A DNA stretch of 64,000 nucleotides from Syntrophus sp. (in: bacteria) (GTDB taxonomy: Bacteria > Desulfobacterota > Syntrophorhabdia > Syntrophorhabdales > Syntrophorhabdaceae). Both the position numbers and the translations under genes were made by a program. Each line of letters opens with the position of its first letter. The stretch's first letter is position 1. The stretch is from assembly GCA_013824835.1 (NCBI GenBank), contig PNOM01000003.1, forward strand, positions 1-64,000. Direction: 5' to 3'. This document shows, one piece after another, positions 5,568 to 27,398 of the stretch. The notes under the pieces are model-generated. The model did no database searches. It worked only from the letters and a program-made list of their open reading frames with translations, and was not told the DNA's origin.

Positions 5568-5933
5568 ATGCTCCAGATGCAGGTGTTCGTTGGTATTATA
5601 AGCGTTATTTTCTTTATCGTTACCTTTGAACTCATAAGAAAAAGATATCTCAGAGAAGAATATGCCATCTTGTGGCTCCTTACATCTTCAGTCATTGCAG
5701 TCCTGAGTCTCTGGCCGGGAATGGTAGATACGCTCAGCCGTATCAGCGGGTTCTATTATATTACCGCAGTTCTGGTGATCATCTTTGTATTCCTTATTTT
5801 TCTATTGATGCATTATTCTATTGTGATATCAAAGATTAAAGAAGTGAATAAGGAACTGATCCAGAGCTATGCCCTCCTTGAACTCCGATTGCGTGAGGTT
5901 GAAGAGAAAAAAGAAAGAAGTTCTTTAGAATGA
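5568..5933 (+). CDS. DUF2304 membrane protein
   Basis: 121 residues: three hydrophobic helices (about 5-22, 34-51 and 62-86) and a charged C-terminal helix (SYALLELRLREVEEKKE) predicted as coiled coil. Length, topology and the KRYLREEYAILWLL motif between helices match DUF2304. The function of the family is unknown, but members commonly follow GT2 glycosyltransferases, as here, so a role as membrane partner or flippase helper is a reasonable guess. The stop overlaps the next start (ATGA at 5930-5933), showing translational coupling. Confidence 0.8.
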   Translation: MLQMQVFVGIISVIFFIVTFELIRKRYLREEYAILWLLTSSVIAVLSLWPGMVDTLSRISGFYYITAVLVIIFVFLIFLLMHYSIVISKIKEVNKELIQSYALLELRLREVEEKKERSSLE

Positions 5934-6424
5934 AATTAATAATTATGTTTATTGTAATCATACAGCCTTCAGCGCTGCTCGCATTTTGTTTTGAAAATGC
6001 AGGCGCCCAATACGGCATACACAATCGTCTTCTTGAGAATATTGCGAGAGTGGAATCAAATTTGAACCCCCGGGCAATTAATGTGAATACCAATGGTTCT
6101 TCCGATATGGGACTTATGCAGATAAATTCCTTCTGGATCAGGACGCTCAGCCTTCGCAAAGAGGAGCTTCTTTCAAATCCATGCTATAATGTTATGGTTG
6201 GGGCAAGTATTCTGAGAACATGCATTGACAGGTTTGGTTATTCTTGGGAAGCTGTTGGTTGTTACAATGCTACGGGCAAAGACAGGAAGATTACCTATGC
6301 CTGGAAGGTGTTCAATATGATGAAAAGGGATAATTATAGGAATAGCAGAAACCATGATACGGATACCACATCAAAGCCATCTCTTGTTTTTGAAGTGAGG
6401 GATTCTTTTGACAGGGATAGATGA
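5930..6424 (+). CDS. Lytic transglycosylase (SLT domain), pilus/secretion-associated
   Basis: 164 residues with an N-terminal signal sequence (residues 1-18) and an SLT/goose-lysozyme-type domain: catalytic Glu42 in ARVESNLNP, then GSSDMGLMQINSFW and AVGCYNATG, the usual second and third motifs. It should cleave peptidoglycan glycan strands with 1,6-anhydro product formation in the periplasm. The short, single-domain form resembles the VirB1/IagB group that opens the wall for envelope-spanning machines. Its overlap with the MshN-like gene (ATGA at 6421-6424) and the facing MSHA-like cluster support such a role. Four cysteines are consistent with a periplasmic location. Confidence 0.85.
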   Translation: MKLIIMFIVIIQPSALLAFCFENAGAQYGIHNRLLENIARVESNLNPRAINVNTNGSSDMGLMQINSFWIRTLSLRKEELLSNPCYNVMVGASILRTCIDRFGYSWEAVGCYNATGKDRKITYAWKVFNMMKRDNYRNSRNHDTDTTSKPSLVFEVRDSFDRDR

Positions 6425-7500
6425 CAATGAGTCTTCTTAATGAACTGCTTTCAAAAGTAACCCATGATAAACATGATAAAAAGGAAAGCGGGGTTCCCCC
6501 GACCCTCGTGCAGGCTGTTACAGATTCTGGAAACAAGAAGGTTGCGAGGCGAAAGTTTGCGGTAATAGGTATGATTGGAATAGTAATCATCCTTGCAGGA
6601 TTCGGCATAATCTACTATATAGAAGCCCTTTCAGGACCTCAGCTGACAACCAAGGCTGCGCAAGGCAGCGTGAATATACAGGCAAAGGCACCACTCAGGG
6701 AACTCAATCCTCCTCAACCGGTGCAGCCGGCAGAAGTAAAACCGATTGAACCGATTGAACCGATTGAACCTAAAGATAAAGGGGGGGAAGAACCAAAAAA
6801 GGCGGTATCATCATTGCCTGCCTCCAAGACGCAAGTACACGTGAAAAATGAGTATGTTCCATCCCGTAACACTGCTGCAAAGAACGATAACACGTTATCT
6901 GTAAAAGCGCCAAAGGCGCGGACTGATCAATCAAGACAGGAAAGGGATAGTTTTCTTTATACAGCAAAGAGCTATGAAGCCCTTGGGGATAATTCGCAGG
7001 CCCTTGATTATTACAAAAAGGCATTGGAAATGGATGGCAGAAACTATGTGATAATGAATAATATTGCCCGGATTATGATCAGTGCAGGCAATTTTGCAGA
7101 GGCAATGAAGTATTCCGGAGAAGCCCTTGTCATAAAGAAAGATCATGTCCCTTCCCTTGTAAACCTTGGTATATCCTATCTGAAATCAGGGAGAATAACA
7201 GAGGGGAAAAACACCCTTTTAAAGGCCCTGACCCTGGAGCCTTCAAATAATTATGTTCTCTTAAACCTTGCCATCTTCTTTGAGAAGGAGAAGGATTTTA
7301 ATGAAGCGCAAAAACTGTACGGAAAGCTCAAAGAGCTGGACAATATACAGGGTAATCTGGGCATTGCGAGACTTGCTGAGAAATCAGGCAAGGGGGAAGA
7401 GGCGAAAAGGATCTACAGAGATATGCTCACGAAGGGGGGCATTGATATAAAAACAAGAAACCTGGTGATGGATAGGCTGGCGGTCCTGGAGAACAGATAA
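6421..7500 (+). CDS. MshN-like TPR protein
   Basis: 359 residues. A short cytoplasmic N-terminus (SLLNELLSKV), one membrane helix at about 43-62, a Pro-rich linker with PIEPIEPIEP, and at least four tetratricopeptide repeats from about residue 175 onward (for example SYEALGDNSQALDYYKKALE and a PSLVNLGISYLKSGR repeat). The layout of short N-terminus, single helix, Pro linker and periplasmic TPRs is that of MshN/PilF-like proteins of the MSHA pilus. It ends 56 bp from the converging minus-strand MSHA-like cluster, and could scaffold secretin or pseudopilus assembly. The MshN name is a context-backed inference. Confidence 0.7.
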   Translation: MTMSLLNELLSKVTHDKHDKKESGVPPTLVQAVTDSGNKKVARRKFAVIGMIGIVIILAGFGIIYYIEALSGPQLTTKAAQGSVNIQAKAPLRELNPPQPVQPAEVKPIEPIEPIEPKDKGGEEPKKAVSSLPASKTQVHVKNEYVPSRNTAAKNDNTLSVKAPKARTDQSRQERDSFLYTAKSYEALGDNSQALDYYKKALEMDGRNYVIMNNIARIMISAGNFAEAMKYSGEALVIKKDHVPSLVNLGISYLKSGRITEGKNTLLKALTLEPSNNYVLLNLAIFFEKEKDFNEAQKLYGKLKELDNIQGNLGIARLAEKSGKGEEAKRIYRDMLTKGGIDIKTRNLVMDRLAVLENR

Positions 7501-7529
7501 TCATAGTTATTTATTACCCTGCGGGTTCA

Positions 7530-7553
7530 TACCCCGAAGCTTGCCGCGGGGTA
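7530..7553. terminator. Hairpin between convergent operons
   Basis: Arms taccccg (7530-7536) and cggggta (7547-7553) form a 7-bp GC-rich stem between the stop of the TPR gene and the stop of the minus-strand ATPase. A smaller acccTGCgggt hairpin lies at 7516-7526. The word taccccgaagc is shared with 55-65, so this may be a fragment of the dispersed repeat serving as terminator. No strong T-run. Confidence 0.4.
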
Positions 7554-7555
7554 GT

Positions 7556-8773
7556 TCAGCTCTCCTGCATCATGACAACCCTATCTGAAATCCAGGCATC
7601 GTTATGGTTTGGTAACTTCACCTTATGCCATTTTATCCCGCCTGTGTCCGTCAGTTCATCAAGGGAAACAAGAACTTTTCCCTTTGATACCCATGCGACC
7701 TTCTCATCCCTTATGGACGGGCCGGACCTTACGTGTGCATCCATGGTGACGGTAATGATCTTTCGGACCTCATGACGGTCAGGGGGAGGTGGAGGGGGAG
7801 GCTTAAGGGGCATGTTCTGCGCAACAGCAGCATTGCTGGCCAGTCTCGCTCTGGTCTGAGCCTTGTACTCTGTTATTTTGATGATGCCTATTATCACTAT
7901 AACAAAGAAGAGAGTCAGTCCGAGAGCCCCATAAATCGTAAGCCTGGGGCTAATGCTTCTTTTGACATTATCACCTGAAAGGTGTTGTTGTGCATATTCT
8001 ACATGTTTTCTCTTAATTGACAGGCTGCCTTCAATATAGGCGGCCATAAGTGATCGGGACGATATAAGATTAATTAACCGGGGGATGCCCCTGGAAAGTC
8101 TGTAGATATGTTTTTTCGCCTCATCCGTGAAGTCTGTTTGACCTTTCCCTGCCTTTGCAAGCCTGAAGCTGATGTAGTCATAGGTCTCAACGGCGTTTAA
8201 GGGTCTTAAGGTTGCCTGGACAGCTATCCTCTGGCTCAATTGTTTCAGTTCTTCGGTGGATAGTCTCTTTCTGAGTTCCGGTTGACCGATAAGTATAATC
8301 TGGAGAAGCTTTTCCTTATCTGTTTCAAGGTTTGAAAGCAATCGCAGTTCTTCGAGAGTTTCAAAGGGCAGGTTCTGGGCTTCATCGACAATGATTATTA
8401 CCCGTTTATCGGACAGGGAATGGGCAATAAGGGTATCCCTGAAGGTCTTGATCATTTCGTTTTTATTGCCTTTATCAACGTTAATGTTAAGGTCTTCCAG
8501 AAGGGCCTGCAAAAATTCTTCAGGGGAAAGTCTTGGCGTCATAATAAGGGCTATTTCTGCGTGTTTGTTCCATTTTTCCATGAATATACGCAAAATAGTG
8601 GTTTTCCCTGTCCCCGGTTCTCCCACTATGAGGGAGAAGCCCTCTTTTTGTTCGATTGCATAGTTGAGTGAAGAGAGCACGTCATTATGTTCTTTTGAGG
8701 GGTAGAAAAAGAAGGGGTCAGGGGTTAACCTGAAAGGGTCTTCTGATAAATTAAAAAAGGCGAGATAGTCCAT
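7556..8773 (-). CDS. ExeA/GspA/MshM-type AAA ATPase with C-terminal SH3-like domain
   Basis: 405 residues. The N-terminus has the family opening FFNLSEDPFRLTPDP, Walker A GEPGTGKTT (51-59) and Walker B VIIIVDEAQNL (about 125-134). A membrane helix at about 278-300 is followed by a PPPPPPP linker and a bacterial SH3-like domain (about 342-402, with VRSGPS and AWISDRVV), which would sit in the periplasm and bind peptidoglycan, as the C-terminal domain of ExeA does. ExeA/GspA and MshM help to thread secretins through the wall. It is the last gene of the seven-gene minus-strand cluster and follows the GspF-like gene by 24 bp. Confidence 0.85.
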   Translation of the reverse strand: MDYLAFFNLSEDPFRLTPDPFFFYPSKEHNDVLSSLNYAIEQKEGFSLIVGEPGTGKTTILRIFMEKWNKHAEIALIMTPRLSPEEFLQALLEDLNINVDKGNKNEMIKTFRDTLIAHSLSDKRVIIIVDEAQNLPFETLEELRLLSNLETDKEKLLQIILIGQPELRKRLSTEELKQLSQRIAVQATLRPLNAVETYDYISFRLAKAGKGQTDFTDEAKKHIYRLSRGIPRLINLISSRSLMAAYIEGSLSIKRKHVEYAQQHLSGDNVKRSISPRLTIYGALGLTLFFVIVIIGIIKITEYKAQTRARLASNAAVAQNMPLKPPPPPPPDRHEVRKIITVTMDAHVRSGPSIRDEKVAWVSKGKVLVSLDELTDTGGIKWHKVKLPNHNDAWISDRVVMMQES

Positions 8774-8797
8774 ATTCAGTCAGATCCTTACCATGTA

Positions 8798-10000
8798 CTA
8801 TTTGAATTTTGATACCACATCATAGATAGGAAGCAGTATTGCCATGATCATTACTGCAAATATAACACCAACTACGGTCATCAATATTGGTTCTATCATC
8901 TTGCTCAACTTATCGGAGAGTGCGTCCAGTTTTTTAAAGTAGATATCTGAGAGGAACGCAAGCTGTTCATCCAGATTTCCGCTCGATTCACCGATATCAA
9001 AGAGTCTTATCACCATGGGGGGAAAGATCGGGTATCCTCTCAAGGCATCGGATATGCGGCTGCCTGTCAGTATCTTTTCCCTTATGCCGGTCAATGCCCT
9101 CTTGAACACCTCTGAATCCATGGAAGCGGCGACTATGGAGAATGACCTGTCAAAGGTGAGGCCGGCAATCACCATAATCCGCATCTGTTCGGAAAAAAAG
9201 GCAAGGAGTTTATTATGGATGAAGAGCTTGACTATGGGCAGCTTCATTATGAACAGGTCGAGATAATAACGGGTGTTCTCCCTTTTTTTCGCTGCCTTTA
9301 TCATGAATATAAGGACGACGGGAATGATAGGGATTATATACCAGTGGGACTGGGTTAAGTTACTCACAAAAAGCAGCATCCTGGTCAAAAAGGGAAGTGG
9401 TACCCCCATTTCTTTAATAACGACAAAAAGCTTCGGCATTACATAGACAACCCAGAAGAGTAAGGCGCCCCCTGTAGTAATCAGAACGAAGATGGGGTAC
9501 ATGAGGGCCCGTTTTACAGCTTCCGACAGATCTTCCAGTCTCTGGAGGTGATTCGCTACATCCATAAGGCTGAGTTCCAGCCGCCCGGTCTCTTCTCCTA
9601 TCTTTACAATTCTCATGAGGATGTCAGGAAAAACATGTCCATTGGCCTTAAAGGCGTCCGACATGGTGGACCCTGATGTAATCCGTTCCTTGATGTCGAG
9701 GATGGCTGCTTTGAGATCCTTGTTGTCCGTTGTTTGTCCCAGATCGTCAAGGGCATCAAGAATAGGAATGCCTGCCTTGAGGACCATACTTGTGCTTCTT
9801 ACGAATTCTATGACATCACGCCGTTTTACCTTGCCTGATCTTTTGCGGAGCTTGCTCGCGCTGCCTGCAGCCTTGATTGTAAGAATGCTTAATCCTTTTG
9901 ATACGAGGTCCTTCTGGGCTTCATTCAATTCCTCGGCTTGAACGAAGCCCTTTGTGAGACCCCCATGTATATCTATGCCCTTATATGCGAAAAGCCCCAT
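8798..10000 (-). CDS. Type II secretion / pilus inner-membrane platform protein (GspF/PilC/MshG)
   Basis: 400 residues with two copies of the T2SF domain (about 65-190 and 268-390) and three membrane helices (about 168-188, 215-235 and 370-395), the standard GspF/PilC plan. Conserved words include GIPILDALDDL, IGEETGRLE and DIGESSGNLDEQL. It forms the cytoplasmic-membrane platform on which the ATPase acts to push subunits into the fibre. It follows the GspE-like gene by four bases and is clearly co-transcribed. Length is typical. Confidence 0.92.
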   Translation of the reverse strand: MGLFAYKGIDIHGGLTKGFVQAEELNEAQKDLVSKGLSILTIKAAGSASKLRKRSGKVKRRDVIEFVRSTSMVLKAGIPILDALDDLGQTTDNKDLKAAILDIKERITSGSTMSDAFKANGHVFPDILMRIVKIGEETGRLELSLMDVANHLQRLEDLSEAVKRALMYPIFVLITTGGALLFWVVYVMPKLFVVIKEMGVPLPFLTRMLLFVSNLTQSHWYIIPIIPVVLIFMIKAAKKRENTRYYLDLFIMKLPIVKLFIHNKLLAFFSEQMRIMVIAGLTFDRSFSIVAASMDSEVFKRALTGIREKILTGSRISDALRGYPIFPPMVIRLFDIGESSGNLDEQLAFLSDIYFKKLDALSDKLSKMIEPILMTVVGVIFAVMIMAILLPIYDVVSKFK

Positions 10001-10004
10001 AGAT

Positions 10005-11654
10005 TTATCCGGCGACCCTCAATGCTTCTTCGATGGTAGTGATCCCCTGGACAGCCTTCATTAAAGCGTCCACTTTCAGCAAGCGCATGCCCCCCTTGAT
10101 TGCGTTCCCTTTCATTGTGGTGATCGATGCAGCGGAATAGATCAGCTCGCGCATCTCATCATTTACCACAAGAATTTCACCAATCATTGTTCTTCCCGAA
10201 TATCCTGTAAGGTTGCACTTCGGACAGCCCTTGCCCCGGAACCCCTTTGTTGCGTTTATTTCATATTCCCTGAGAATGGATATCTCCATGTCATTCAGGT
10301 CATACTCTGTTTTGCAGTGTACACATGTCTTGCGTATTAATCTCTGGGCTATGATGGCAAGAAGTGATGCGGAGAGCATGTATCTGTCGACATCAAGGTC
10401 TATGAGGCGGGGTACTGCAGTCAGGGCATCATTTGTGTGTAGGGTGCTTATCACGAGGTGCCCCGTAACTGATGCCCGTATGGCAAGCCTGGCGGTTTCC
10501 TCATCCCTGATCTCACCCAGGAGAATCACATCAGGATCCTGTCTCATAAAGGTCCTTCCTGCGAGGGCGAAGTCATAGCCTGCTTTTTCATTCACCTGGG
10601 TCTGTTTCACAAAACTCAACTTGTATTCCACGGGATCTTCAACAGTAAGCACGTTCCTTTCGAGTATGTTAATTTCCCTCAAGGCAGCATAGAGGGTTGT
10701 TGTTTTTCCGCTCCCTGTGGGACCTGTGACGAGGATGATCCCATAGGGTTTCTGAAAGAGGTTTTTTACTTTCTCCGTGTTTACAGAATCAAAGCCAAGA
10801 TTCTCAAGGCGCAGGAAAGATGCTTTTCCGGTAAGGATCCTCATGACCACATTTTCGCCGTAAATAGTGGGCGCCGTGGAGATACGGATGTCATAGCCCC
10901 TGTTCAGAAAATTGTACGTAAAAGCACCGTCCTGGGGCAGTCGTGTTTCTGCAATATTGAGCTGCGAGAGGATCTTTATCCTCGATACAACACCGCTCTG
11001 AACAACCTTAGGCAGACAGTGGGCAAACTGCAGTACCCCGTCTATTCGAAAGAATATCTGGACCACGTTTTCGGCGGGGTTTATATGAATGTCAGTAGTA
11101 TTTTTTCTGATACCATCCATAATGATTGTGTCTGCAAGAGAGACTACATCATTTCCTCCAAGGGTGCCTGTTCGCTGCACCTCTTTGATGACGCTGTCTA
11201 TCCTCTGCTGTACAGGGTTTTCAAGGAAGAAGTAGGACCGGTCAACTGCTTCATTGTAGGCGTCGCTGTCAACGAGATAGACTTTAGGCTGGTTTTTGGT
11301 GATTCTTGAAACCGTATCGATGGCCAGTATATTGCCGGGATTAGTAATGCCGATGCTCAATCTCCCGTTTTCCATTTCGATAGGTATAAATTCATTTTTT
11401 TCCGCTATTGCCTTGGGTATGACTTTCAGCGCATCATCAAGCATTAAATTTTGGCTGCCCAGGTCATAGAACTCTACACCCGATTGCTCGGCGAGTATCT
11501 GGGTTCGTTCTTTGGAGGATATAAATCCGAGCTTCACAAGCACATCGCCGAGGAGATCACCGGTTACCCGCTGCTGAATGAGCGCAATCTGAAGCTGCTT
11601 GTCAGTGATCATTCCTTTTTCGATTAAAATGTCGCCAAGCTTTATTGTTGCCAT
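10005..11654 (-). CDS. GspE/PilB/MshE-type assembly ATPase
   Basis: 549 residues. The N-terminal part (about 1-140) contains MshEN-type motifs, KLGDILIEKGMITDKQL and LLGDVLVKLGFI, the class of motif that binds cyclic di-GMP in MshE. The ATPase core has Walker A GPTGSGKTT (311-319), Asp box VEDPVEY (about 338-344), Walker B VILLGEIRDEET (376-387), His box GHLVISTLHTND (398-409), and the C-terminal tetra-cysteine zinc site CVHC (444-447) and CPKC (477-480). It powers pilus or pseudopilus assembly from the cytoplasm. Both MshEN motifs deviate at the leading Arg (Lys and Leu), so regulation by c-di-GMP is plausible, not certain. Confidence 0.93.
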   Translation of the reverse strand: MATIKLGDILIEKGMITDKQLQIALIQQRVTGDLLGDVLVKLGFISSKERTQILAEQSGVEFYDLGSQNLMLDDALKVIPKAIAEKNEFIPIEMENGRLSIGITNPGNILAIDTVSRITKNQPKVYLVDSDAYNEAVDRSYFFLENPVQQRIDSVIKEVQRTGTLGGNDVVSLADTIIMDGIRKNTTDIHINPAENVVQIFFRIDGVLQFAHCLPKVVQSGVVSRIKILSQLNIAETRLPQDGAFTYNFLNRGYDIRISTAPTIYGENVVMRILTGKASFLRLENLGFDSVNTEKVKNLFQKPYGIILVTGPTGSGKTTTLYAALREINILERNVLTVEDPVEYKLSFVKQTQVNEKAGYDFALAGRTFMRQDPDVILLGEIRDEETARLAIRASVTGHLVISTLHTNDALTAVPRLIDLDVDRYMLSASLLAIIAQRLIRKTCVHCKTEYDLNDMEISILREYEINATKGFRGKGCPKCNLTGYSGRTMIGEILVVNDEMRELIYSAASITTMKGNAIKGGMRLLKVDALMKAVQGITTIEEALRVAG

Positions 11655-17752: not shown

Positions 17753-17852
17753 AATACAAGGGTACCACGATGTATCAGGGGGACACGCTTTTCACAGGAA
17801 GTCTCTCTTTAATGGAAAATGCGCTGATATTTTTAAATTGGAGGTTATTGAA

Positions 17853-19130
17853 ATGGCTAAAGCTCAGGTTTTTGAAAACAGGCCACCGGTCCTTGGGATA
17901 AACGGATTGGGAAGAATCGGGAAGCTGACGTTATGGCATCATATAGCCAGAAAATATTTTAAAGAGATTGTAATAAACCAGGGAAGAGAAGTGGGTATGG
18001 GATTATCGTCAATTGCCCAGTTTATTGAAAAGGATGCTACATATGGACTGCTCCACAAGTTTTTGCATGGGATAAAGGCGGAGCGGGTTATTGAGATCAT
18101 TGATGAGAAGAAGGGGACAATGCGTATCGACGGAATGCCTGTAACGGTCCTGCGGGAGGCAAGGAATCCCAAGGATATCCCGTGGCGTGACTTCGGCATC
18201 GAGATTGTTGCCGAATGTACAGGTAAATTTGGTGACCCCACTGCATCCTTTGATAATGACAAGGGTTCAATAAAAGGGCATTTCGCCGGCGGCGCAAAAA
18301 TTGTAATCAACTCATCTGCTTTCAAGATCAAGAATAAAGCCTTGTCTATGCCTGATGATGCGGTGACCCTCATATACGGCATCAATCATCATGCCTTTGA
18401 TTACAAAAAACACAGGCTCATATCAGCCGCATCCTGCACGACAACAGGGCTTGCCCATATGGTAAAGCCCCTTCTTGAAAACAAAGAGACGAGCAGGATC
18501 CTTACTGCCTCCATGTCAACCGTTCACGCGGTAACAAATACGCAGAGCGTGCTTGACAATGTACCGAAGGCCGGGGAGAAGGACCTCAGGAAGAACAGGA
18601 GCATTCTCAATAACATCATCCTAACCTCTACCAACGCTGCAGATGCGCTGGCGCAGGTTATCCCCGCAGTGCGGGAGATCGGCTTTATGGCTGACTCAAT
18701 ACGGGTTCCTACGAATACGGAATCTCTGATAGTGCTGAATGTAACCTTCCAGCCTCAGATGAGCAAGGACGGGACTACACCGTTGATTACCACGAAGACC
18801 ATAAATGATATCTACAAACAGGTGGCAGAGATCGACCCTGAACACCTTCTTATATACACGGAGGAGCAGAATGTTTCAACCGACCTCATTGGCGTGGATG
18901 CGGCGATTGTTATCGAAGGACAATTTAATCATACCCGCACTGCTTTTCAAACAATTGATCTTTCACGAATACCCAATATTCCAGATATACTGGTGAAGGC
19001 GATGGAAAACGAAACCTTACGGGTGCCGGTTGTCCACGCGAAGATATTCGGTTGGTACGACAATGAATATGGGAGCTATACGAACAGGATGGGGGATTTA
19101 ACGGTCTTTGCCCATAAACAGTTAACATAA
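17853..19130 (+). CDS. Glyceraldehyde-3-phosphate dehydrogenase (long, divergent form)
   Basis: 425 residues from ATG 17853, chosen by GGAGG at 17840-17844; a TTG at 17838 overlaps that site. Motifs are GAPDH: NAD-binding GINGLGRIGKL (15-25), ECTGKF (121-126), the catalytic Cys195 in SAASCTTT, and YDNEYGSYTNRMGDL near the C-terminus. It is some 90 residues longer than usual GapA (about 335), and the strict SNASCTTN signature is altered to SAASCTTT, so cofactor or substrate use may differ. It should interconvert glyceraldehyde 3-phosphate and 1,3-bisphosphoglycerate. Monocistronic, closed by the hairpin at 19138-19176. Confidence 0.85.
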   Translation: MAKAQVFENRPPVLGINGLGRIGKLTLWHHIARKYFKEIVINQGREVGMGLSSIAQFIEKDATYGLLHKFLHGIKAERVIEIIDEKKGTMRIDGMPVTVLREARNPKDIPWRDFGIEIVAECTGKFGDPTASFDNDKGSIKGHFAGGAKIVINSSAFKIKNKALSMPDDAVTLIYGINHHAFDYKKHRLISAASCTTTGLAHMVKPLLENKETSRILTASMSTVHAVTNTQSVLDNVPKAGEKDLRKNRSILNNIILTSTNAADALAQVIPAVREIGFMADSIRVPTNTESLIVLNVTFQPQMSKDGTTPLITTKTINDIYKQVAEIDPEHLLIYTEEQNVSTDLIGVDAAIVIEGQFNHTRTAFQTIDLSRIPNIPDILVKAMENETLRVPVVHAKIFGWYDNEYGSYTNRMGDLTVFAHKQLT

Positions 19131-19137
19131 TGAATAA

Positions 19138-19183
19138 TACCCAGGATGTCGCTTCATGGAAGTGGCATCCTGGGTAGGTTTTT
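19138..19183 (+). terminator. Rho-independent terminator of GAPDH gene
   Basis: Arms tacccaggatg (19138-19148) and catcctgggta (19166-19176) form an 11-bp stem followed by five T residues (19179-19183), eight bases after the GAPDH stop. Confidence 0.85.
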
Positions 19184-19184
19184 G

Positions 19185-22100
19185 TCAGATCATTATTTTC
19201 AAAGGTTCTTCAGATTTACTCTCATGTTTTCCAAGATAGACAGTGCCGCTCCACCCGTCAATACTTATAAAATCTCCCCCCTTAATCTTCCGGCTGTCAA
19301 TGAGGCTGTAGCCTTCTATTTCGTAGACCCGCAGTTTATTGAAACCAACGACACCCACTTTGTTGAGCTGGGGGATTGTTACTGCAGCATGGGAGGTGCC
19401 GCCCCCTTTAGCGGTCAGCAGGCCGTCAGCCTGGAGAATAATCCCCACATCTTCTGATACGGTATCGGGGCGGATCAGGATGAGGGGGGTATCCGGTTCT
19501 CTTTCCCGGTAATATTTGATCTCATCTTCCGAGTAGACTGCCCTGCCTGAGAGGGCGCCGCCGCTGACGCCAATCCCTATGCCGAGAAGAGAGACCTGGA
19601 GATCCGGGGTATCGCGAAAGATATTCAAGCGCCTTGTTTCAGTCTGGGTCATGTCCCGGGTTTGAAGTATATAGAGGCTATCTCTTGTTGAGTTTTCAAA
19701 GGTGAACTCAATCTCCTGATGACGGAAACCCTTTTCATAGATGAGAATTTCGGCAAGCCTGACAAGCTCATGATAGATTTCAGGGAATTTTATCTCAAGA
19801 GAAATGGTAGAGTCTCTTGGTTCCGCAATTCTTTGATTTTCGGAAATAGGATAGGTTTCAACAAGGCCGGACACAATGTCATCCCCCTGGACGCCGAAGA
19901 TGAAATCACCATACAATGCAACCTCAGGGGACGGCCCCTTCGGGTTTCTCGTGAATATTACCCCTGACCCTGAGTCTTCATTCAGGTTTCCGAAGACCAT
20001 AGCCTGCACAATGACTGCGGTGCCCCATTCGTCAGAAAGGTGCATCTCGTGACGGTATATATTCGCCTGATCGGAATACCAGGATGCAAAGACCCGCAGG
20101 ATTGACTGCTGAAGCTGTTCAAAGGGGTCATCAATAACTTCAATGCCTCCTTCCTCCATGGCGCTCTTGTAAGAAAGGGCAATTTGCCGCATCTGTTCCG
20201 CATTGAAGAGTATCTTTCTGTCTATATTATATTTAAATTTGAAATTGTTGATAATTCTGTCAAAAAAATTCCTGTCCAGGTTATGGAACATACCCCACAT
20301 CTGGAGAAACCTTCTGTAGGAGTCCCACGCTGCCCATTCAAATCCCTTCTTTGTACTCAGCCCCTCTGCGATTGCCTCGTTGATGCCTACATTGAGGAAG
20401 GAATGCATCATTCCAGGGAGGGAAATAGTGGCGCCGCTTCGTACGGAGAGGAGCAAAGGGTTATGGTGGTCACCGAATTTCTTGCCCTCTGCCTTCTCAA
20501 GCTTTATTATCTCGTTGTATATACGGTGGCTTACGTCATTAAAGATGTACTTGTACCCAACCACTGCGTCATATTTTCTGAAAACCTCGGTGGTAAGGAT
20601 AAAGCCGGGCGGGACGGGGAAATTAAGGGCTGCGAGTTCCTTTAGAAAATATCCCTTGTTTCCGATAAGTATCTGGTTGTCAGTCTGTTTATTTTTCTTG
20701 TAAATAGTTGAAATTGTCAGTTCAGGCATGTAGGCCATAACAAGGTTCAGGATCTGCTTGTTATCCTTGAATTTCTCCAGTTCGGCATTCAAGGTCCTGA
20801 TAATGGCGTTGATGAAATTATCGAGCACCTGGAGCCCGAAGGCAGAGGATATGACGGATCTGCAAAAGTTTTCCGAGGCCTGATATACTACCTCCTGATC
20901 CTCCTGACCAAGGCTCGCAATCGCTGCTGTTCCATCCTTTTGGGAATTTTGCCGTATAATGATCGGCAGATTCCCGCTATGGGCATTTATGTAGTAGTCC
21001 TTGATAATATCCCTGATGCCCTTGGAGATGAATTGAAAGATATCAACATATTGATCCACGGAGAACTGTTTGATCTGGAGTGCACTGGTGATGTATTTCA
21101 TCTTGGCGACAAGGCCTTCTGTGGTAATGCCCTCCAGATCAAGGGCTTTTACATATAGCCAGAGACATTTGTGGATATTCATAAGGGTGCTTTTTGTAAT
21201 GAATTTGAGGTTTAAGGAGACTATCAATTCTTCAAATAATGTGGTGGCAAAATGTTCGAGACGGAGCGAAAGCCCAACGGCCTCGAATTTTTCTTCCTGG
21301 TATGTTCCGTACATGGACGGAATGCCGGCAGCAATATGTCTCTTGTAGTAGATATTCTCAAAATAGGTCGTCTTTATGGGAGAAAGAATCCGTTCCTTGA
21401 GGATTGAGAGAAACCCGAGAATGATGGTGAGACTTTGATAGTAGTTCTTCTTATGGATATGTCTTCTCAGGGTACGGATTGTCGGAGTGCTGAAAATTCC
21501 TGTAGCCTCCAGGTCTTTGAGTAAATCAATAGGGAGGAAATTATACTTCTTGTATAAAAGCTGGTACAACCGGATCATGAGCGCTGCCCGCTCTTTGTCC
21601 CGTTCTGTAACGCCTTTAATTTGCTGTATTGCCCTGTGCGCCTTTGCTGAATCCCAGTCAAGAAAACTATGGGGCTCGTTCTGTATCTTCGGAAAGAGGA
21701 GAGAGAATACCCTGTGCATACCATCGAAATACTCGCCTTTGTCGGCTACCTGTTCATACACCTCGAGGGGAAGGTGATCCCTGATATACATTTTGCTGCC
21801 CGAATGCCAGAAACGAAATATATCTTCAATAAAGCTCACGAGCAGGCTGTTGCTCTCTACATGGGATTGTTTGCGAAGGTAGTAGACAAGCTTGTCATTC
21901 CTTTGGGAAAGCTCATCTACTCTGGTTGATGTATCCCGTAACTCGCCCTCCGCGCCGATTTCATTAAAATAGATAGGAAAGATTCGCAGGAGCTGTTTCA
22001 CGAGATTATATGCCGGTGTTATCTCTGAGTTGAGAAGACCTGAAATCTCTTTTTGCAGAAGGTCTGTATCCCGCACAAAAACCCCGCCGATTTTCAGATT

Positions 22101-23399
22101 GATAATGAGGGCTGACAGGAGCCTTTTGGTCCACCGGGGCCGCAAAGCAATAATCTCAAGCCATGACCGTATATTCATGATATGAGCGGGGTTTACCCTT
22201 ACCTGCCACTCGGCGGTTGAGCCTGTAATCTCAGGACGCTGAAAACCGAAAAGGATTAATTCTTCAATCATGGTATCCACAAGGGGGTGGTTTTTCTGGG
22301 CAAAGACCTCCCTCGCAATGGTAGTGACACAGTCTATTATGACACTGCGGTGTTCATAGGATGCACTCTGCTTTAAAAGGGCAAAAAGCTTCTTCACAAA
22401 GTCGTTCAGATCGCCATCGTTTTCCTCCTTGAATACTACACGGAGGCATCTGTTGATCTCCTGGAGCACACTATTGTAGATGTCGGAAAGACCGGAGACA
22501 TTCATCATATTGAACAGGAAATCGAGTTTTACCATGTGGCGGTGCCCTGGAAACGCGGATGACCTCTCCAGATCATCCGCAATCAGGAGATATCCGTTTA
22601 CGATCTGGGCATGATCAGGCAAGGTAAGATATGTGGCGATAAGGCTATTGTCATTGGCCATGATCCGGTCATGGAGACCTTCCAGATTTCCCAGCAGAGA
22701 CTCAATATTTCTGTGGCTTAAGGGTTTTATGAGGGCCTCAAAGACGCTTGCCCCTTCATTATTTTCTGTATCCCGACTAAACCACTCTGCGGGGTCAGGC
22801 TGGGTGAGCCAGAATATATATGTTTCCTTAAAAAAACCGTAGAGAACCATTTTTAAAGAATCTACAGGTACATCAAACCCTGGGTCAACGACAGATTTAA
22901 GAAGCGCCTTCAAATAGGTGGAACTTTTCCTGAAAAGAGGGCCATAGTCATTATATGCCTTTTTCAAAGACTCGGCGAGAAAGGGAAAAAGGACGAGGTT
23001 CCGGGGAAGGAGTTCCCTGCTGTTTGAGACGATTGTGGCGACATAATCAAAAAGGTAGCGGATCGATGTTTCTCTGATCTCCTCACTTGAGGCGGCTCTT
23101 ATGATGTCGAAATAGATGGAAAGAATGATTTTGAGGGCACCGCACCCATCCCTGTGCATGTTTATTTCGTAGAAATCGCCTATGGAGAGGGTTCTGAGTT
23201 CTTTTAATACATATTCCCAGTTTACATAGGGGTGGTTAAGCTCAAGGAGCAACTCACGGGTACGCTTGGAAACACCGTAGTGTCCTTCCACGACCTCAAG
23301 AAGTCCGTTGTATTGTTCCGGTATCGCTACATTTGCGGCCGTACGCTCCAGATTTACCTGAAGGGCTGAAGAATTAAGGGGTTTTATCTGTTCATCCAT
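19185..23399 (-). CDS. Giant PPDK/PEP-synthase-like protein without PEP-binding barrel
   Basis: 1404 residues. The C-terminal 500 residues are recognisable: a pyruvate phosphate dikinase ATP-grasp domain from about 905 (GNKGYFLKELAALNFPVPPGF, LLSVRSGATISLPGMMHSFLN, VFGNLNEDSGSGVIFTRN, LQTRDMTQTE) to about 1265, then the phosphohistidine swivelling domain with TAKGGGTSHAAV, the phosphorylated His near 1336. The chain stops soon after, so the C-terminal PEP/pyruvate TIM barrel of PPDK and PpsA is absent. The first 900 residues are helical and unassigned. It probably makes a phosphohistidine from ATP and passes it to an unknown acceptor or partner. The gene is alone, tail-to-tail with GAPDH. Function inferred. 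Confidence 0.75.
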   Translation of the reverse strand: MDEQIKPLNSSALQVNLERTAANVAIPEQYNGLLEVVEGHYGVSKRTRELLLELNHPYVNWEYVLKELRTLSIGDFYEINMHRDGCGALKIILSIYFDIIRAASSEEIRETSIRYLFDYVATIVSNSRELLPRNLVLFPFLAESLKKAYNDYGPLFRKSSTYLKALLKSVVDPGFDVPVDSLKMVLYGFFKETYIFWLTQPDPAEWFSRDTENNEGASVFEALIKPLSHRNIESLLGNLEGLHDRIMANDNSLIATYLTLPDHAQIVNGYLLIADDLERSSAFPGHRHMVKLDFLFNMMNVSGLSDIYNSVLQEINRCLRVVFKEENDGDLNDFVKKLFALLKQSASYEHRSVIIDCVTTIAREVFAQKNHPLVDTMIEELILFGFQRPEITGSTAEWQVRVNPAHIMNIRSWLEIIALRPRWTKRLLSALIINLKIGGVFVRDTDLLQKEISGLLNSEITPAYNLVKQLLRIFPIYFNEIGAEGELRDTSTRVDELSQRNDKLVYYLRKQSHVESNSLLVSFIEDIFRFWHSGSKMYIRDHLPLEVYEQVADKGEYFDGMHRVFSLLFPKIQNEPHSFLDWDSAKAHRAIQQIKGVTERDKERAALMIRLYQLLYKKYNFLPIDLLKDLEATGIFSTPTIRTLRRHIHKKNYYQSLTIILGFLSILKERILSPIKTTYFENIYYKRHIAAGIPSMYGTYQEEKFEAVGLSLRLEHFATTLFEELIVSLNLKFITKSTLMNIHKCLWLYVKALDLEGITTEGLVAKMKYITSALQIKQFSVDQYVDIFQFISKGIRDIIKDYYINAHSGNLPIIIRQNSQKDGTAAIASLGQEDQEVVYQASENFCRSVISSAFGLQVLDNFINAIIRTLNAELEKFKDNKQILNLVMAYMPELTISTIYKKNKQTDNQILIGNKGYFLKELAALNFPVPPGFILTTEVFRKYDAVVGYKYIFNDVSHRIYNEIIKLEKAEGKKFGDHHNPLLLSVRSGATISLPGMMHSFLNVGINEAIAEGLSTKKGFEWAAWDSYRRFLQMWGMFHNLDRNFFDRIINNFKFKYNIDRKILFNAEQMRQIALSYKSAMEEGGIEVIDDPFEQLQQSILRVFASWYSDQANIYRHEMHLSDEWGTAVIVQAMVFGNLNEDSGSGVIFTRNPKGPSPEVALYGDFIFGVQGDDIVSGLVETYPISENQRIAEPRDSTISLEIKFPEIYHELVRLAEILIYEKGFRHQEIEFTFENSTRDSLYILQTRDMTQTETRRLNIFRDTPDLQVSLLGIGIGVSGGALSGRAVYSEDEIKYYREREPDTPLILIRPDTVSEDVGIILQADGLLTAKGGGTSHAAVTIPQLNKVGVVGFNKLRVYEIEGYSLIDSRKIKGGDFISIDGWSGTVYLGKHESKSEEPLKIMI

Positions 23400-23505: not shown

Positions 23506-24492
23506 TTATTTGTTCAATTTTGCTTTGAACTTTTCAATAAGTTTCGGGACAAACACGTTAATATCTCCCACTACGCCAATGGTGGCATTCTTAAAGATCG
23601 GGGCATCGGCATCTTTGTTGATGGCCACGATACAATCAGATGTCCTCATTCCTGCAAGATGCTGGATGGCTCCGGAGATACCGCAGGCTATGTAGATTTT
23701 CGGCTTTACTGTCTTTCCTGTCTGACCTACCTGATGGTCATAGGATATCCAGTCTGAATCAACTGCGGCACGGGATGCACCCACTGCGCCGCCCAGGAGA
23801 TCGGCAAGCTCTTTGAGCATGGTAAAGCTTTCTGCCTTACCTACGCCTCTGCCGCCTGAAATAATAATATCAGCCTCAACGAGATTTACTGACGTTGCGG
23901 ATGGTATAAATTCGACTACCTTGGTGTGAAGGCTATCTTCCGATACTGAAACGGATTCTTTTACAACCTCGCCCTGTGCTGCGGCATCTTTCTCAGGCAT
24001 GGCAAATGCCTTTGGTCTTACGGTAGCAATCTGAGTCTGTGCCTTCTCATTAACCACGGTTACCGTGAAGTTGCCGCCAAAAGCAGCCCGTGTCATCTTC
24101 AGCTTGCCGCCGTCGATTACGAGACCGATGGTATCAGCACAGAGACCTGTCTGAAGCTTTGCGGCTGCGGCTGCTGCCATATCGGAACCCTGACTTGTAC
24201 CCCTGAAGAGCGCAATCTCAGGTTTGTACTTCTCAATGAGAGTCTGTGCGGCCTTTACATATGCATCAGCCCTGAACCCTTTGAATACGCCGTCTTCTAC
24301 TGTATATACCTTTGAAGCGCCATAAGCTATAGCGTCTTTTGCGATCCCGTCAACGCTGTCTCCTATGACAAAGGCGCATACATTTGAGCCCAGGTCTTTA
24401 GCAAGCGTTTTACCAATGCCCAGGATTTCAAAGGACATTGGGGATGCATTTCCGTCTTTATGTTCTATATATACCCATACATCGTTAGCCAT
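23506..24492 (-). CDS. etfA: Electron transfer flavoprotein alpha subunit
   Basis: 328 residues, normal length. The C-terminal FAD domain carries [33 protein letters not shown] and the family signature [16 protein letters not shown], with IVAINKD and DAPIF following. ETF alpha binds FAD and, with EtfB, carries electrons from acyl-CoA dehydrogenases to membrane quinone or, in bifurcating systems, between NADH and ferredoxin. No bifurcation-specific partner is present in the window. It is the last gene of a four-gene operon and starts 18 bp after etfB. Confidence 0.95.
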
Positions 24493-24510
24493 TATTATCC
24501 CTCCTCCCGG

Positions 24511-25308
24511 TTATTTTATGACTTTCAAGTCAATAAGTTTGTCTACAACCGTAGTTGCGATGTCTTCGAGCTCGCCTTTCAGGATTTCTCCTGCGCCTCT
24601 TGGTGGTGGTACTGCGATTTCCACAACCTTGGTAGATGAGCCTGCTGCTCCTACTTTACCCTTATCCAATCCGAGGTCATCGGCGGTCCACTGGGGTATT
24701 GCAATCTTTGAGGCCTTTCTGATGCCCATGAGGTTGGGAAGACGGGGTTCATTGATGCCTTTAATGACGGATACTACTGCCGGCAGTTTTGCCTCAACAA
24801 CCTGTGTGCCGCCTTCAATTGCCCTTTCCACTATTATCTTCTTGCCTGCTTCATCGATTGAACGGACCTTGGAAACATAGGTAAGCTGGCTGAAGTCGAG
24901 TATTGAAGCAAGAAATGCACCCACAACGCCGGTATTGCCGTCTGTGGACTGTTTACCACAAAAGACTACATCCACATCACCGATCTTCTTAATGGCAGCT
25001 GCGAGCACTGATGCGGTTGCATAGGTGTCGGAGCCGGCAAATGCGTCATCGGTAAGCTGATAGACTGAATCTACCGTGAGGGCAAGGGCGTTTCTCAAGA
25101 CGTCTGCTGCTTTGTCCGGGCCCATGGTAATTGCGACGATCTCACCGTCATAGTTTTCTTTTGTAAGCAGGGCTTCTTCTAATGCGAACTCGTCAAAAGG
25201 GTTCGTTACCGAGTCCATCCCTTCTCTGTTGAGTGCGCCCTTTGGAATGTCCCACTTCACTTCTGCTTCAGTGTCGGGAACCTGTTTTATACACGCTACT
25301 ATCTTCAC
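24511..25308 (-). CDS. etfB: Electron transfer flavoprotein beta subunit
   Basis: 265 residues from GTG 25308, selected because AAGGAGGA sits five bases upstream and the family start KIVACIKQVPDTEAEVKWD follows at once; the longer reading adds nine residues without support. Motifs include NPFDEFALEEAL, TMGP, FCGKQSTDGNTGVVGAFLA (AMP or second FAD site) and the C-terminal recognition-loop region RLPNLMGIRKASK. Together with EtfA it forms the soluble cytoplasmic heterodimer. Whether it is a bifurcating type cannot be told safely by eye. Confidence 0.95.
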   Translation of the reverse strand: MKIVACIKQVPDTEAEVKWDIPKGALNREGMDSVTNPFDEFALEEALLTKENYDGEIVAITMGPDKAADVLRNALALTVDSVYQLTDDAFAGSDTYATASVLAAAIKKIGDVDVVFCGKQSTDGNTGVVGAFLASILDFSQLTYVSKVRSIDEAGKKIIVERAIEGGTQVVEAKLPAVVSVIKGINEPRLPNLMGIRKASKIAIPQWTADDLGLDKGKVGAAGSSTKVVEIAVPPPRGAGEILKGELEDIATTVVDKLIDLKVIK

Positions 25309-25327
25309 AGTCTCCTCCTTGTTGTTT

Positions 25328-26110
25328 TTATTCACCTTTAAAGGTGGATTTTCTTTTTTCTACAAATGCGGTCATGCCTTCTTTCTGATCCTTTGTGGCA
25401 AAACATAGCCCGAAGTCTTTGGCCTCAAGCATAAGGGCATCGTCAGTGCTCATGTAAAGACTTCTGTTTATTAACTGTTTTGCAAGCCTTATGGAAAAGG
25501 GACCATTTGCCTTTATTTTCCCCGCCAACGCCATCACATCGCTCATCAACTGATCGTGAGGCACCACTTTATTGATGAGCCCCATGTCATATGCCTCCTG
25601 AGCGCCAATGGTTTTCCCGGTGAATATCAATTCCTTGGTTTTAGCGAGGCCGGCTAATTTTGCAGTTCTCTGAGTTCCCCCGAACCCGGGAAAAATCCCG
25701 AGGGTCGTTTCAGGGAAGCCAATCTTTGCCTTTTCTGAGGCGTAAATGAAGTCGCATGCGAGGGCTACCTCAAAACCCCCACCCAGGGCATAGCCGTTCA
25801 CTGCTGCAATGACAGGCTTCTGCATGTTTTCTAATGCAGCAAAGGCATCGTGACCCCTTTGAGAAAAGGCCATACCTTCCAGTGCAGTCAGGTCTTTCAT
25901 CTCGAGTATATCAGCCCCGGCGATGAATGCCTTGTCTCCTTCACCGGTCACAATTACCACCCGAACCTCAGGATTGCTTTCGAGGGCTTTTGCTGCATCC
26001 ATGATTTCTATCAGGGTCTCTGAATTGAGGGCATTTAATGCCTTCGGTCTGTTTATCTTTAAAACCCCTATACCATCGTTGATCTCAACGATCACGTTTT
26101 TGTAATCCAT
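25328..26110 (-). CDS. Enoyl-CoA hydratase (crotonase family)
   Basis: 260 residues from ATG 26110; the longer open frame upstream overlaps the thiolase gene and has no family similarity. The crotonase signatures are present: AFIAGADILEM (oxyanion hole), NGYALGGGFEVALACDF with both catalytic-region glutamates, and FPETTLGIFPGFGGTQRTAKLAG. It should hydrate trans-2-enoyl-CoA (crotonyl-CoA) to 3-hydroxyacyl-CoA in the cytoplasm. It follows the thiolase stop by four bases and precedes etfB by 20, so beta-oxidation or butyryl/crotonyl-CoA conversion is the obvious pathway. A 3-hydroxyacyl-CoA dehydrogenase is not in the window. Confidence 0.93.
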   Translation of the reverse strand: MDYKNVIVEINDGIGVLKINRPKALNALNSETLIEIMDAAKALESNPEVRVVIVTGEGDKAFIAGADILEMKDLTALEGMAFSQRGHDAFAALENMQKPVIAAVNGYALGGGFEVALACDFIYASEKAKIGFPETTLGIFPGFGGTQRTAKLAGLAKTKELIFTGKTIGAQEAYDMGLINKVVPHDQLMSDVMALAGKIKANGPFSIRLAKQLINRSLYMSTDDALMLEAKDFGLCFATKDQKEGMTAFVEKRKSTFKGE

Positions 26111-26114
26111 ATGA

Positions 26115-27398
26115 TTATGCCTCGCTTTCGAGAATTGCTGCCAACCCCTGTCCGCCGCCGATACACATGGAAACAAGACCATACTTGAGGCCAAGCCGCT
26201 GCATCTGATAGAGGGCCGTAGTGACAAGCCTTGCGCCTGTACAACCGATGGGGTGACCCAATGATATCCCGCCGCCAAACATATTACATTTGTCAGGATT
26301 TACCTTAAGCTCTCTCATGCAGGCGATAGCCTGGGATGCGAAGGCCTCATTGAGTTCGATCAGGTCTATCTGATCAAGGGTCATGTTGGCTTTTTTCAGA
26401 GCCTTTCTGATTGCAGGTATCGGACCAAGGCCCATGTACTGTGGATCAAGTCCACCGCCCGCATAGGCGATGATTTTACCCATGGGTTTGATCCCTAAGG
26501 CCTGCGCCTTTTCTCTTGTCATCAACACAACCGCTGATGCCGCGTCATTGAGACCTGATGCGTTCCCTGCGGTTACTGTTCCGTCTTTCTTGAAGGCTGT
26601 TCCAAGTTTTCCCATTTTTTCAATGGTAGTATCCATGGGTCTCTCGTCTGTATCGAAAACAACAGGATCACCCTTTTTCTGGGGTATTACAACGGGAACG
26701 ATTTCCGGTTTGAAGAGACCTTCTTTTATAGCCTTCATTGCCCGCTGGTGACTCACAAGACCGAATGTATCCTGTTCCAGTCTTGTAATGCCGTAGAGTG
26801 CTGCAATATTTTCTGCGGTTACGCCCATATGGTATCCGTAGAATATTTCCCATATACCGTCAAGGACCATGAGGTCTACCATCTTGGCGTCAAACATACG
26901 TGCGCCCCACCGTGCGGAAGGTACTGAGAAGGGTGCAAGGCTCATATTTTCCATGCCTCCGGCGACCACTACTTCGTTATCCCCTGTATTAATTGACTGG
27001 ATGCCGTTAATGATGGCCCTCAGTCCGGAGGAACATACCTTGTTGAGTGTGTAGGCATTTGTTTCCTTGGGGACCCCGCCGAAGATGCTGGCCTGTCTTC
27101 CTGAATTCTGGCCAAGCCCTGCCTGGAGGACATTACCCATGATAACCTCATCAATTTCGACTTCCTTCAGACTGCTGTCAAAATCATAGTATTTTGCTTC
27201 AAGATCCGTATCTGTTTTTCCACCAAAGATGTCCGGTGCTACATCTTTATCCTTATTCCTTGAAGGCCTTATGCCTGCCCGTTTTATTGCCTCTTTAATT
27301 GCGAGACCCCCCAACTGCACTACAGGCACGTCTTTCAAAGAACCGCCGAAACTACCGATTGCTGTTCGTGCGCAAGACACTATCACTGCTTCTTTCAT
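26115..27398 (-). CDS. Acetyl-CoA acetyltransferase (thiolase) with an insertion
   Basis: 427 residues against the usual 390-395. All catalytic parts are there: nucleophile Cys122 in KVCSSGLRA, NEAFASQA, GGGISLGHPIGCTGAR with the catalytic His, and C-terminal CIGGGQG with the second Cys. The extra length is an insertion at about residues 44-79 (PSRNKDKDVAPDIFGGKTD region) between the first helix and the IDEVIMGNV strand. It should condense or cleave acetoacetyl-CoA. First gene of the operon thiolase-crotonase-etfB-etfA; AAGGAG lies eight bases upstream of the ATG. Confidence 0.93.
   Translation of the reverse strand: MKEAVIVSCARTAIGSFGGSLKDVPVVQLGGLAIKEAIKRAGIRPSRNKDKDVAPDIFGGKTDTDLEAKYYDFDSSLKEVEIDEVIMGNVLQAGLGQNSGRQASIFGGVPKETNAYTLNKVCSSGLRAIINGIQSINTGDNEVVVAGGMENMSLAPFSVPSARWGARMFDAKMVDLMVLDGIWEIFYGYHMGVTAENIAALYGITRLEQDTFGLVSHQRAMKAIKEGLFKPEIVPVVIPQKKGDPVVFDTDERPMDTTIEKMGKLGTAFKKDGTVTAGNASGLNDAASAVVLMTREKAQALGIKPMGKIIAYAGGGLDPQYMGLGPIPAIRKALKKANMTLDQIDLIELNEAFASQAIACMRELKVNPDKCNMFGGGISLGHPIGCTGARLVTTALYQMQRLGLKYGLVSMCIGGGQGLAAILESEA

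Follow-up and report, generated by a model that had tools for sequence, protein, structure and literature searches.

A PPDK-like protein without a PEP/pyruvate barrel and its link to a divergent GAPDH paralogue

The window, which is the whole 64,000-nucleotide stretch of DNA that was analysed, contains a PPDK-like gene (PPDKL) that converges with the gene of a divergent GAPDH paralogue (GAPDH2). A terminator-like hairpin lies between the two genes (Table 1). The PPDKL frame starts with ATG and is open over all its codons. Its only Pfam matches are PPDK_N (residues 956-1256, E 7.5e-31) and PEP-utilizers (residues 1305-1385, E 4.9e-10), and NCBIfam and PDB searches widen the ATP-grasp match to residues ~903-1265 and that of the histidine domain to ~1271-1397. 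The PEP-utilizers_C barrel (PF02896) is not found in PPDKL by the Pfam search, and the aligned relatives likewise lack it. The domain layout that had been read from the letters, an ATP-grasp and a swivelling phosphohistidine domain in a chain that stops where the barrel is expected to start, is thus borne out.

Table 1. Features of the PPDKL-GAPDH2 locus (positions are those of the window).
Feature	Position	Strand	Details
GAPDH2, 430 aa, divergent GAPDH paralogue	17838..19130	+	Cys200 (=C149) at 18435-18437, His230 (=H176), Thr235 at position 181
18-pair hairpin followed by a T-run, terminator-like	19138..19176		between the convergent GAPDH2 and PPDKL genes
PPDKL gene, 1404 aa	19185..23399	-	helical N-terminal region, ATP-grasp and phosphohistidine domains, without barrel
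Phosphohistidine (swivel) domain, residues 1305-1385	19245..19487	-	His1337 in GGGTSHAA at 19389-19391
PPDK-type ATP-grasp domain, residues ~905-1256	19632..20687	-	K915, R987, E1231, Q1246, R1248
PPDKL N-terminal region, residues 1-896	20712..23399	-	all-helical in model; relatives detected only within the PPDKL family
Conserved block 2, residues 681-715, candidate acceptor site	21255..21359	-	KRHIAxxIPSxYGxYxExKFxA...R713-x-E715
Conserved block 1, residues 385-515, candidate acceptor site	21855..22247	-	conservation across relatives

PPDKL is widespread in the phylum. A profile search with the N-terminal region detects it in 117 of the 395 sampled genomes, and in most of these the frames met are ~1370-1590 codons long. 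The 26 relatives from named assemblies have nearly equal length and the same layout; 18 of them were aligned, show 61-66% identity and share, with small variations, the C-terminal motif SIDGWSGxVYxGKH. None of the relatives was found on a plasmid. Given the common length and C-terminus, and the full-length frames met by the profile, a frameshift that hides a C-terminal barrel, named beforehand as an observation that would count against the architecture, is ruled out. Single breaks of the PPDKL frame do occur in two other genomes (G106 and G333) and might suggest an artefact, in the form of a frameshift, an assembly error or a pseudogene. This explanation is refuted by the conservation of length, C-terminus and catalytic residues across many families, and its probability is practically nil. 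Joint decay of PPDKL and GAPDH2 in G106 was also considered and rejected, as only the PPDKL frame is broken there.

The catalytic part is of the PPDK type: the ATP-grasp part scores 365 bits with the PPDK model TIGR01828 versus 57 bits with PEP synthase. The whole protein stays below the equivalog cut-off of the former (365 versus 843 bits). The features of PPDK are present in the form of an ATP-grasp domain with the catalytic Lys, Arg, Glu and Gln and a phosphohistidine domain with TSHA, and Lys915, Arg987, Glu1231, Gln1246, Arg1248 and His1337 are identical in all complete relatives aligned. Judged from these residues, PPDKL appears fully equipped to phosphorylate its own histidine but has no pyruvate site. 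Because it could load the histidine without a site for pyruvate, another acceptor would be needed; this part of the original prediction is supported by the invariant loading residues and the absent barrel.

PPDKL might also be one half of an ordinary PEP synthase or PPDK that is completed by a separate barrel protein, as its PPDK-like ATP-grasp and histidine domains would allow. In the window's genome, however, PF02896 matches only two frames, one of 923 codons that encodes a complete PPDK and one of 599 codons that is of EI size; the co-occurring free barrel that had been proposed for survey is not found in this assembly, which is 93.9% complete, and no barrel gene is conserved beside PPDKL. 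Such a two-piece enzyme is very improbable. The identification of PPDKL as a normal PEP synthase is contradicted, and a separate, ordinary barrel-containing PPDK is encoded in the same genome. Candidate phenylphosphate synthase genes are found in this genome as well.

The first ~900 residues were predicted to match nothing familiar, and Pfam, PDB sequence and fold searches agree. The N-terminal part has no sequence match in Pfam or PDB. The structure prediction that had been suggested gives an all-helical model of moderate quality with no significant fold relative: all 595 matches of the fold search are weak, with E above 0.001 throughout and listed TM-scores of 0.19 or less. Such weak matches are typical of what any helical solenoid model gives. 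Across the phylum, residues 401-550 and 651-760 are conserved at ~0.6-0.75, the level of the catalytic domains, versus 0.37-0.56 for residues 1-400. The conserved residues of block 1 are W398, H406, D444-T445-D446, I481-GAEG-485, R488, D495-E496, R500, R509-K510, H513 and E515. The charged residues R488, R500, R509, K510, H513, K686, R687, H688, K704 and R713 are invariant, a pattern that fits a binding site for a substrate with several charges. A model of residues 380-1404, which covers the N-terminal blocks and the catalytic part, has too low a confidence (pLDDT 46) to dock the blocks on the swivel domain. No structure thus places the conserved residues near His1337, which counts against the reading preferred below.

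The all-helical N-terminus, with its weak fold matches to generic protein-binding solenoids, would also suit a regulator. In this reading the phosphohistidine would hand its phosphate to a protein, perhaps GAPDH2 or a carrier of the PTS type, and the N-terminus would serve as a scaffold for docking and sense the energy charge. The genes ptsN and rapZ and a PTS EIIA-like gene lie near the cluster in some families, and ordinary glycolytic enzymes are also encoded. On the other hand, the two N-terminal blocks, with their many invariant charged residues, are conserved far above the level expected of a docking surface, and the ptsN neighbourhood is missing from the window's own lineage, whereas the linkage to GAPDH2 is constant. 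A regulatory role is unlikely.

GAPDH2, which the original prediction did not mention, gives the strongest hint to the identity of the PPDKL acceptor. Among the 395 sampled genomes, 114 contain both genes, three only PPDKL and two only GAPDH2. Two of the three PPDKL-only genomes hold remote relatives (L089 and L090) from which the KRHI/IPSxYG and IGAEG motifs are missing as well, and the two GAPDH2-only genomes are MAGs that are 62% and 79% complete. Both genes are jointly missing from other genomes of families f1, f4, f12, f13, f35 and f51, so the association does not reflect one inheritance event. The two genes share a contig in 91 cases; in 87 of these they are adjacent, with GAPDH2 directly downstream of PPDKL, 70 being co-directional and 17 convergent. 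The gene order gap1-PPDKL-gap2-pgk-tpi-secG is found in L073, L074 and L075, and L080 has the same cluster but with both gap genes after PPDKL. No paper describing the pair was found in the open-access literature.

The GAPDH2 proteins are ~425 residues long, ~90 more than type I GAPDH, and carry several insertions. The residues C149, H176, T179, T208, R231 and N313 are kept in 33/33 sequences, and GAPDH2 is therefore probably a working GAPDH-type enzyme. Asp181, at the substrate-phosphate site, is replaced by Ser/Thr in 33/33 sequences (Asp in 13/13 ordinary GAPDH), and for this reason the substrate may differ from glyceraldehyde-3-phosphate. The SCTTN motif is SCTTT in all 33, and the scores with TIGR01534 (297 bits in the window, 326 in L074) are below the cut-off of 367 bits.

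These replacements, the insertions and the low score also suit an enzyme of the same kind with another small carboxylate or alcohol as acceptor, in which GAPDH2 would be a specialised aldehyde or acyl-phosphate dehydrogenase on the same side path. An ordinary PGK is encoded in nearly all PPDKL genomes, which rejects the replacement of PGK by PPDKL, and in the window's genome an ordinary GAPDH lies directly before PGK. The module is thus not a simple replacement, and the presence of both ordinary enzymes adds to the case for a side path. Against it, several families have the two genes within the gap-pgk-tpi cluster, and no pathway gene beyond this cluster is conserved beside the pair. This alternative is rather unlikely.

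The reading that we prefer, with a probability of about 0.45, is that PPDKL is a PPDK-derived dikinase in which the barrel is replaced by a helical N-terminus that binds another acceptor, likeliest 3-phosphoglycerate, and that forms a bypass with GAPDH2. The ATP-grasp domain would bind ATP (and, by analogy with PPDK, Pi) and phosphorylate His1337, with formation of AMP and PPi; the use of Pi is assumed since the ATP-grasp part scores as PPDK and not as PEP synthase. The swivel domain would then bring the phosphoryl group into a basic pocket made of the two conserved N-terminal blocks, where it would be transferred to a small anionic metabolite that is a product or a substrate of GAPDH2. With 3-phosphoglycerate as acceptor, the product would be 1,3-bisphosphoglycerate, which GAPDH2 would reduce to glyceraldehyde-3-phosphate. 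Together the two proteins would bypass the PGK/GAPDH step with formation of AMP, by a route chiefly useful for gluconeogenesis in anaerobes near the energetic limit; it could also run in reverse and yield ATP from AMP and PPi. That the pair converts 3-phosphoglycerate to glyceraldehyde-3-phosphate and back, using ATP/AMP and Pi/PPi in place of ATP/ADP, through a new acceptor domain of the PPDK superfamily, is possible but doubtful.

Glycolysis and gluconeogenesis are usually regarded as completely known in their lower trunk. Within the gap-pgk-tpi cluster of this trunk, several lineages contain a conserved two-gene module of unassigned function, present in ~29% of the genomes sampled from a major anaerobic phylum. 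The module suggests an uncharted coupling of carbon flux to AMP and PPi in organisms with very little energy. If the proposed route is true, it would be a third chemistry here, in addition to that of PGK/GAPDH and that of the non-phosphorylating dehydrogenases. The N-terminus adds to the PPDK/PEP synthase/rifampin phosphotransferase superfamily a candidate acceptor domain unlike the known ones, and the partner GAPDH2 makes the orphan PPDKL a directly testable biochemical question.

Among known systems, PPDK (e.g. PDB 1KBL) has the same domain order and catalytic residues, and the top PDB hits of PPDKL are chains of this enzyme (260 bits). PPDKL differs in the missing C-terminal PEP/pyruvate barrel, the 900-residue N-terminal extension and the link to GAPDH2. 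Type I GAPDH (TIGR01534) shares Cys149, His176 and most phosphate-site residues with GAPDH2, which differs in length, in position 181 and in its score below the family cut-off. Phenylphosphate synthase (PpsA/PpsB) is likewise a PEP-synthase-derived phosphotransferase without a barrel and with another acceptor, but has split subunits and acts on phenol. The N-terminus of PPDKL is dissimilar to its acceptor-side, alpha-like subunit (hhalign probability 0.2%), and similarity to PPDK was likewise rejected (0.1-0.2% over the two comparisons). Glucan, water dikinase is also a dikinase with a non-barrel acceptor, but is a plant enzyme with the phosphohistidine domain before the nucleotide-binding domain and with starch-binding N-terminal modules. 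The large Desulfovibrio vulgaris protein DVU1833 ('PpsA', 132.6 kDa), listed next to the pyruvate carboxylase DVU1834 under gluconeogenesis (PMC10920352), may be comparable but is ~200 residues shorter than PPDKL. Rifampin phosphotransferase (RPH) combines an ATP-grasp domain, a C-terminal phosphohistidine swivel and a non-barrel acceptor domain (PMC4844700), to which PPDKL may be analogous in principle. By sequence PPDKL is PPDK-like and does not qualify as an RPH, with 31 bits versus a cut-off of 999 for the model NF041857, and its domain order differs: the RPH acceptor domain lies between the ATP-grasp and swivel domains (PMC4844700), whereas the sole candidate for such a domain in PPDKL precedes the ATP-grasp domain.

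The simplest reading of PPDKL, the PPDK-like protein without a PEP/pyruvate barrel, and of its neighbour GAPDH2, a divergent GAPDH paralogue (gene gap2), is that the two would have an acyl phosphate in common, most likely 1,3-bisphosphoglycerate. The only Pfam matches of PPDKL are PPDK_N and the phosphohistidine domain. Comparison with NCBIfam and the PDB places the ATP-grasp domain at residues ~903-1265 and the swivel domain, after which the chain terminates, at ~1271-1397, with PPDK as the closest relative. PPDKL is nevertheless rejected as a PPDK by membership, owing to the missing barrel and a score below the cut-off. With each species represented by a single genome, a scan yields 27 PPDKL loci, all in assemblies of syntrophs or their relatives (Syntrophorhabdus, Syntrophus, Smithella, unnamed Syntrophaceae and Deltaproteobacteria). 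The lengths are about equal in 26 loci, the remaining one being cut by a contig end, and the 19 aligned sequences (the window's and 18 relatives) have a C-terminal motif in common. The barrel's absence is therefore a family trait. Single frame breaks split PPDKL in two genomes, in G106 near residue 590, within a weakly conserved stretch, and in G333; these may be sequencing errors or true splits.

Lys915, Arg987, Glu1231, Gln1246, Arg1248 and His1337 are identical in every aligned member with complete sequence, and the catalytic part is, by its residues, intact. By analogy with PPDK and rifampin phosphotransferase, ATP should phosphorylate His1337. Pfam and the PDB indeed contain nothing similar in sequence to the N-terminal region, earlier said to match nothing known. 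The structure of this region, predicted from 26 sequences (mean pLDDT 76), is all helical save a few short bridges, and Foldseek returns only weak matches, to solenoid proteins of a generic kind (karyopherins, for example). Conservation equals that of the catalytic domains at residues 401-550 and 651-760 and is much lower in the first 400 residues. The conserved blocks, the candidate acceptor site, hold many invariant charged residues, including R488, R500, R509, K510, H513 and E515 in the first and K686, R687, H688, E702, K704, R713 and E715 in the second; their loops are modelled with low confidence.

Coordinates of the features discussed
Feature	Position	Strand	Remark
GAPDH2 gene	window 17838-19130	plus	430 residues
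PPDKL frame	window 19185-23399	minus	open over 1404 codons
etfA, etfB, enoyl-CoA hydratase, thiolase genes	window 23506-27398	minus	upstream of PPDKL
PPDKL frame break, L098 (G106)	about 4700		
PPDKL frame break, L100 (G333)	about 3150		
Remote relative, L089 (G413)	5734-10365		1543 aa
Remote relative, L090 (G343)	6873-11330		1485 aa
gap2-pgk pair, first copy (G141)	C1:505485-507924		complete genome
gap2-pgk pair, second copy (G141)	C1:1777503-1779942		complete genome

GAPDH2 scores under the type I GAPDH cut-off. Cys149, His176, Thr179, Thr208, Arg231 and Asn313 are kept in 33/33 sequences, and thioester formation is predicted. Asp181, kept in 13/13 ordinary GAPDHs, is replaced by Ser/Thr in all 33, and Gly209 by Asn in 23; the substrate phosphate may be bound differently. 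The altered Asp181 also speaks for a rival reading, in which the pair may use a substrate other than 1,3-bisphosphoglycerate.

In the window, the GAPDH2 gene lies downstream of PPDKL and convergent to it, across 55 bases with a terminator-like hairpin, and in this lineage it is the sole constant neighbour. The etfAB/enoyl-CoA hydratase/thiolase order recurs before PPDKL at two other loci (L008, L023). Reading of the sequences at four further loci assigns a single-strand run gap1 - PPDKL - gap2 - pgk - tpi - secG to L073, L074 and L075, gap1 being the other GAPDH gene, and the order PPDKL - gap2 - gap1 - pgk - tpi - secG to L080. At L074 the run extends upstream to rimI, a PTS EIIA-like gene, rapZ, ptsN, hpf and rpoN. 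The gap2-pgk pair is doubled in one complete genome.

Among 395 genomes sampled from the phylum, the PPDKL N-terminal profile matches 117, mostly in frames of ~1370-1590 codons, and the GAPDH2 profile (E <= 1e-60) matches 116; 114 have both. The three with PPDKL only are two remote relatives and a 76% complete MAG, and the two with GAPDH2 only are 62% and 79% complete. The Fisher test (3e-93) overstates the association because the genomes are related; the stronger point is that double-positive and double-negative genomes occur together in at least six families (f1, f4, f12, f13, f35, f51). The genes lie on separate contigs in 23 genomes and widely separated on one chromosome in the complete genomes G057 and G232, so that co-occurrence is not merely a by-product of adjacency. 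The sequence distances of the two proteins correlate (r = 0.97; 0.95 vs 0.86 in the subset having ordinary GAPDH), a weak support for the pairing since common descent alone predicts high values. The remote relatives (L089, L090), matched over only ~145 residues, keep the layout and the active His, lack GAPDH2 and the KRHI/IPSxYG motifs, and have a sigma-54-type regulator gene alongside; they are perhaps a second subfamily using another acceptor.

The window's own genome also contains an ordinary GAPDH gene immediately before a PGK gene (contig C34) and a complete PPDK including the barrel (C12), and PPDKL and GAPDH2 are thus additional enzymes. On C29 (L028), an ATP-grasp-only protein (378 aa) adjoins a phosphohistidine-only one (446 aa), followed by a UbiX-like gene; the pair is probably phenylphosphate synthase PpsB/PpsA, and the genes suggest phenol degradation by this organism. 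L029 encodes a PPDK_N protein of 867 aa whose N-terminal part is unrelated; no match to the PF02896 barrel occurs on its contig, C78, and the protein is possibly another acceptor-swapped relative. Across the phylum, many genomes of families f35, f51 and f83 match PGK much more weakly (E about 1e-75, elsewhere about 1e-150), reflecting a divergent or split PGK.

A shared acyl phosphate would most simply account for four features together: PPDKL is a phosphohistidine enzyme that lacks a pyruvate site, its N-terminus has a conserved basic site, its partner resembles GAPDH, and the genes have gap, pgk and tpi as neighbours. Carboxylate phosphorylation is within reach of the transfer potential of phosphohistidine. 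Syntrophs and other organic-acid-using anaerobes chiefly require gluconeogenesis, and AMP formation would strengthen its driving force. The role of the pair may instead be regulatory. No paper describing PPDKL with GAPDH2 was found in the open-access literature. A parallel is offered by rifampin phosphotransferase, in which the swivel domain shuttles phosphate from one site to another far away (PMC4844700). Although domain order and score reject PPDKL as a member of that family, by analogy it would work similarly in principle.
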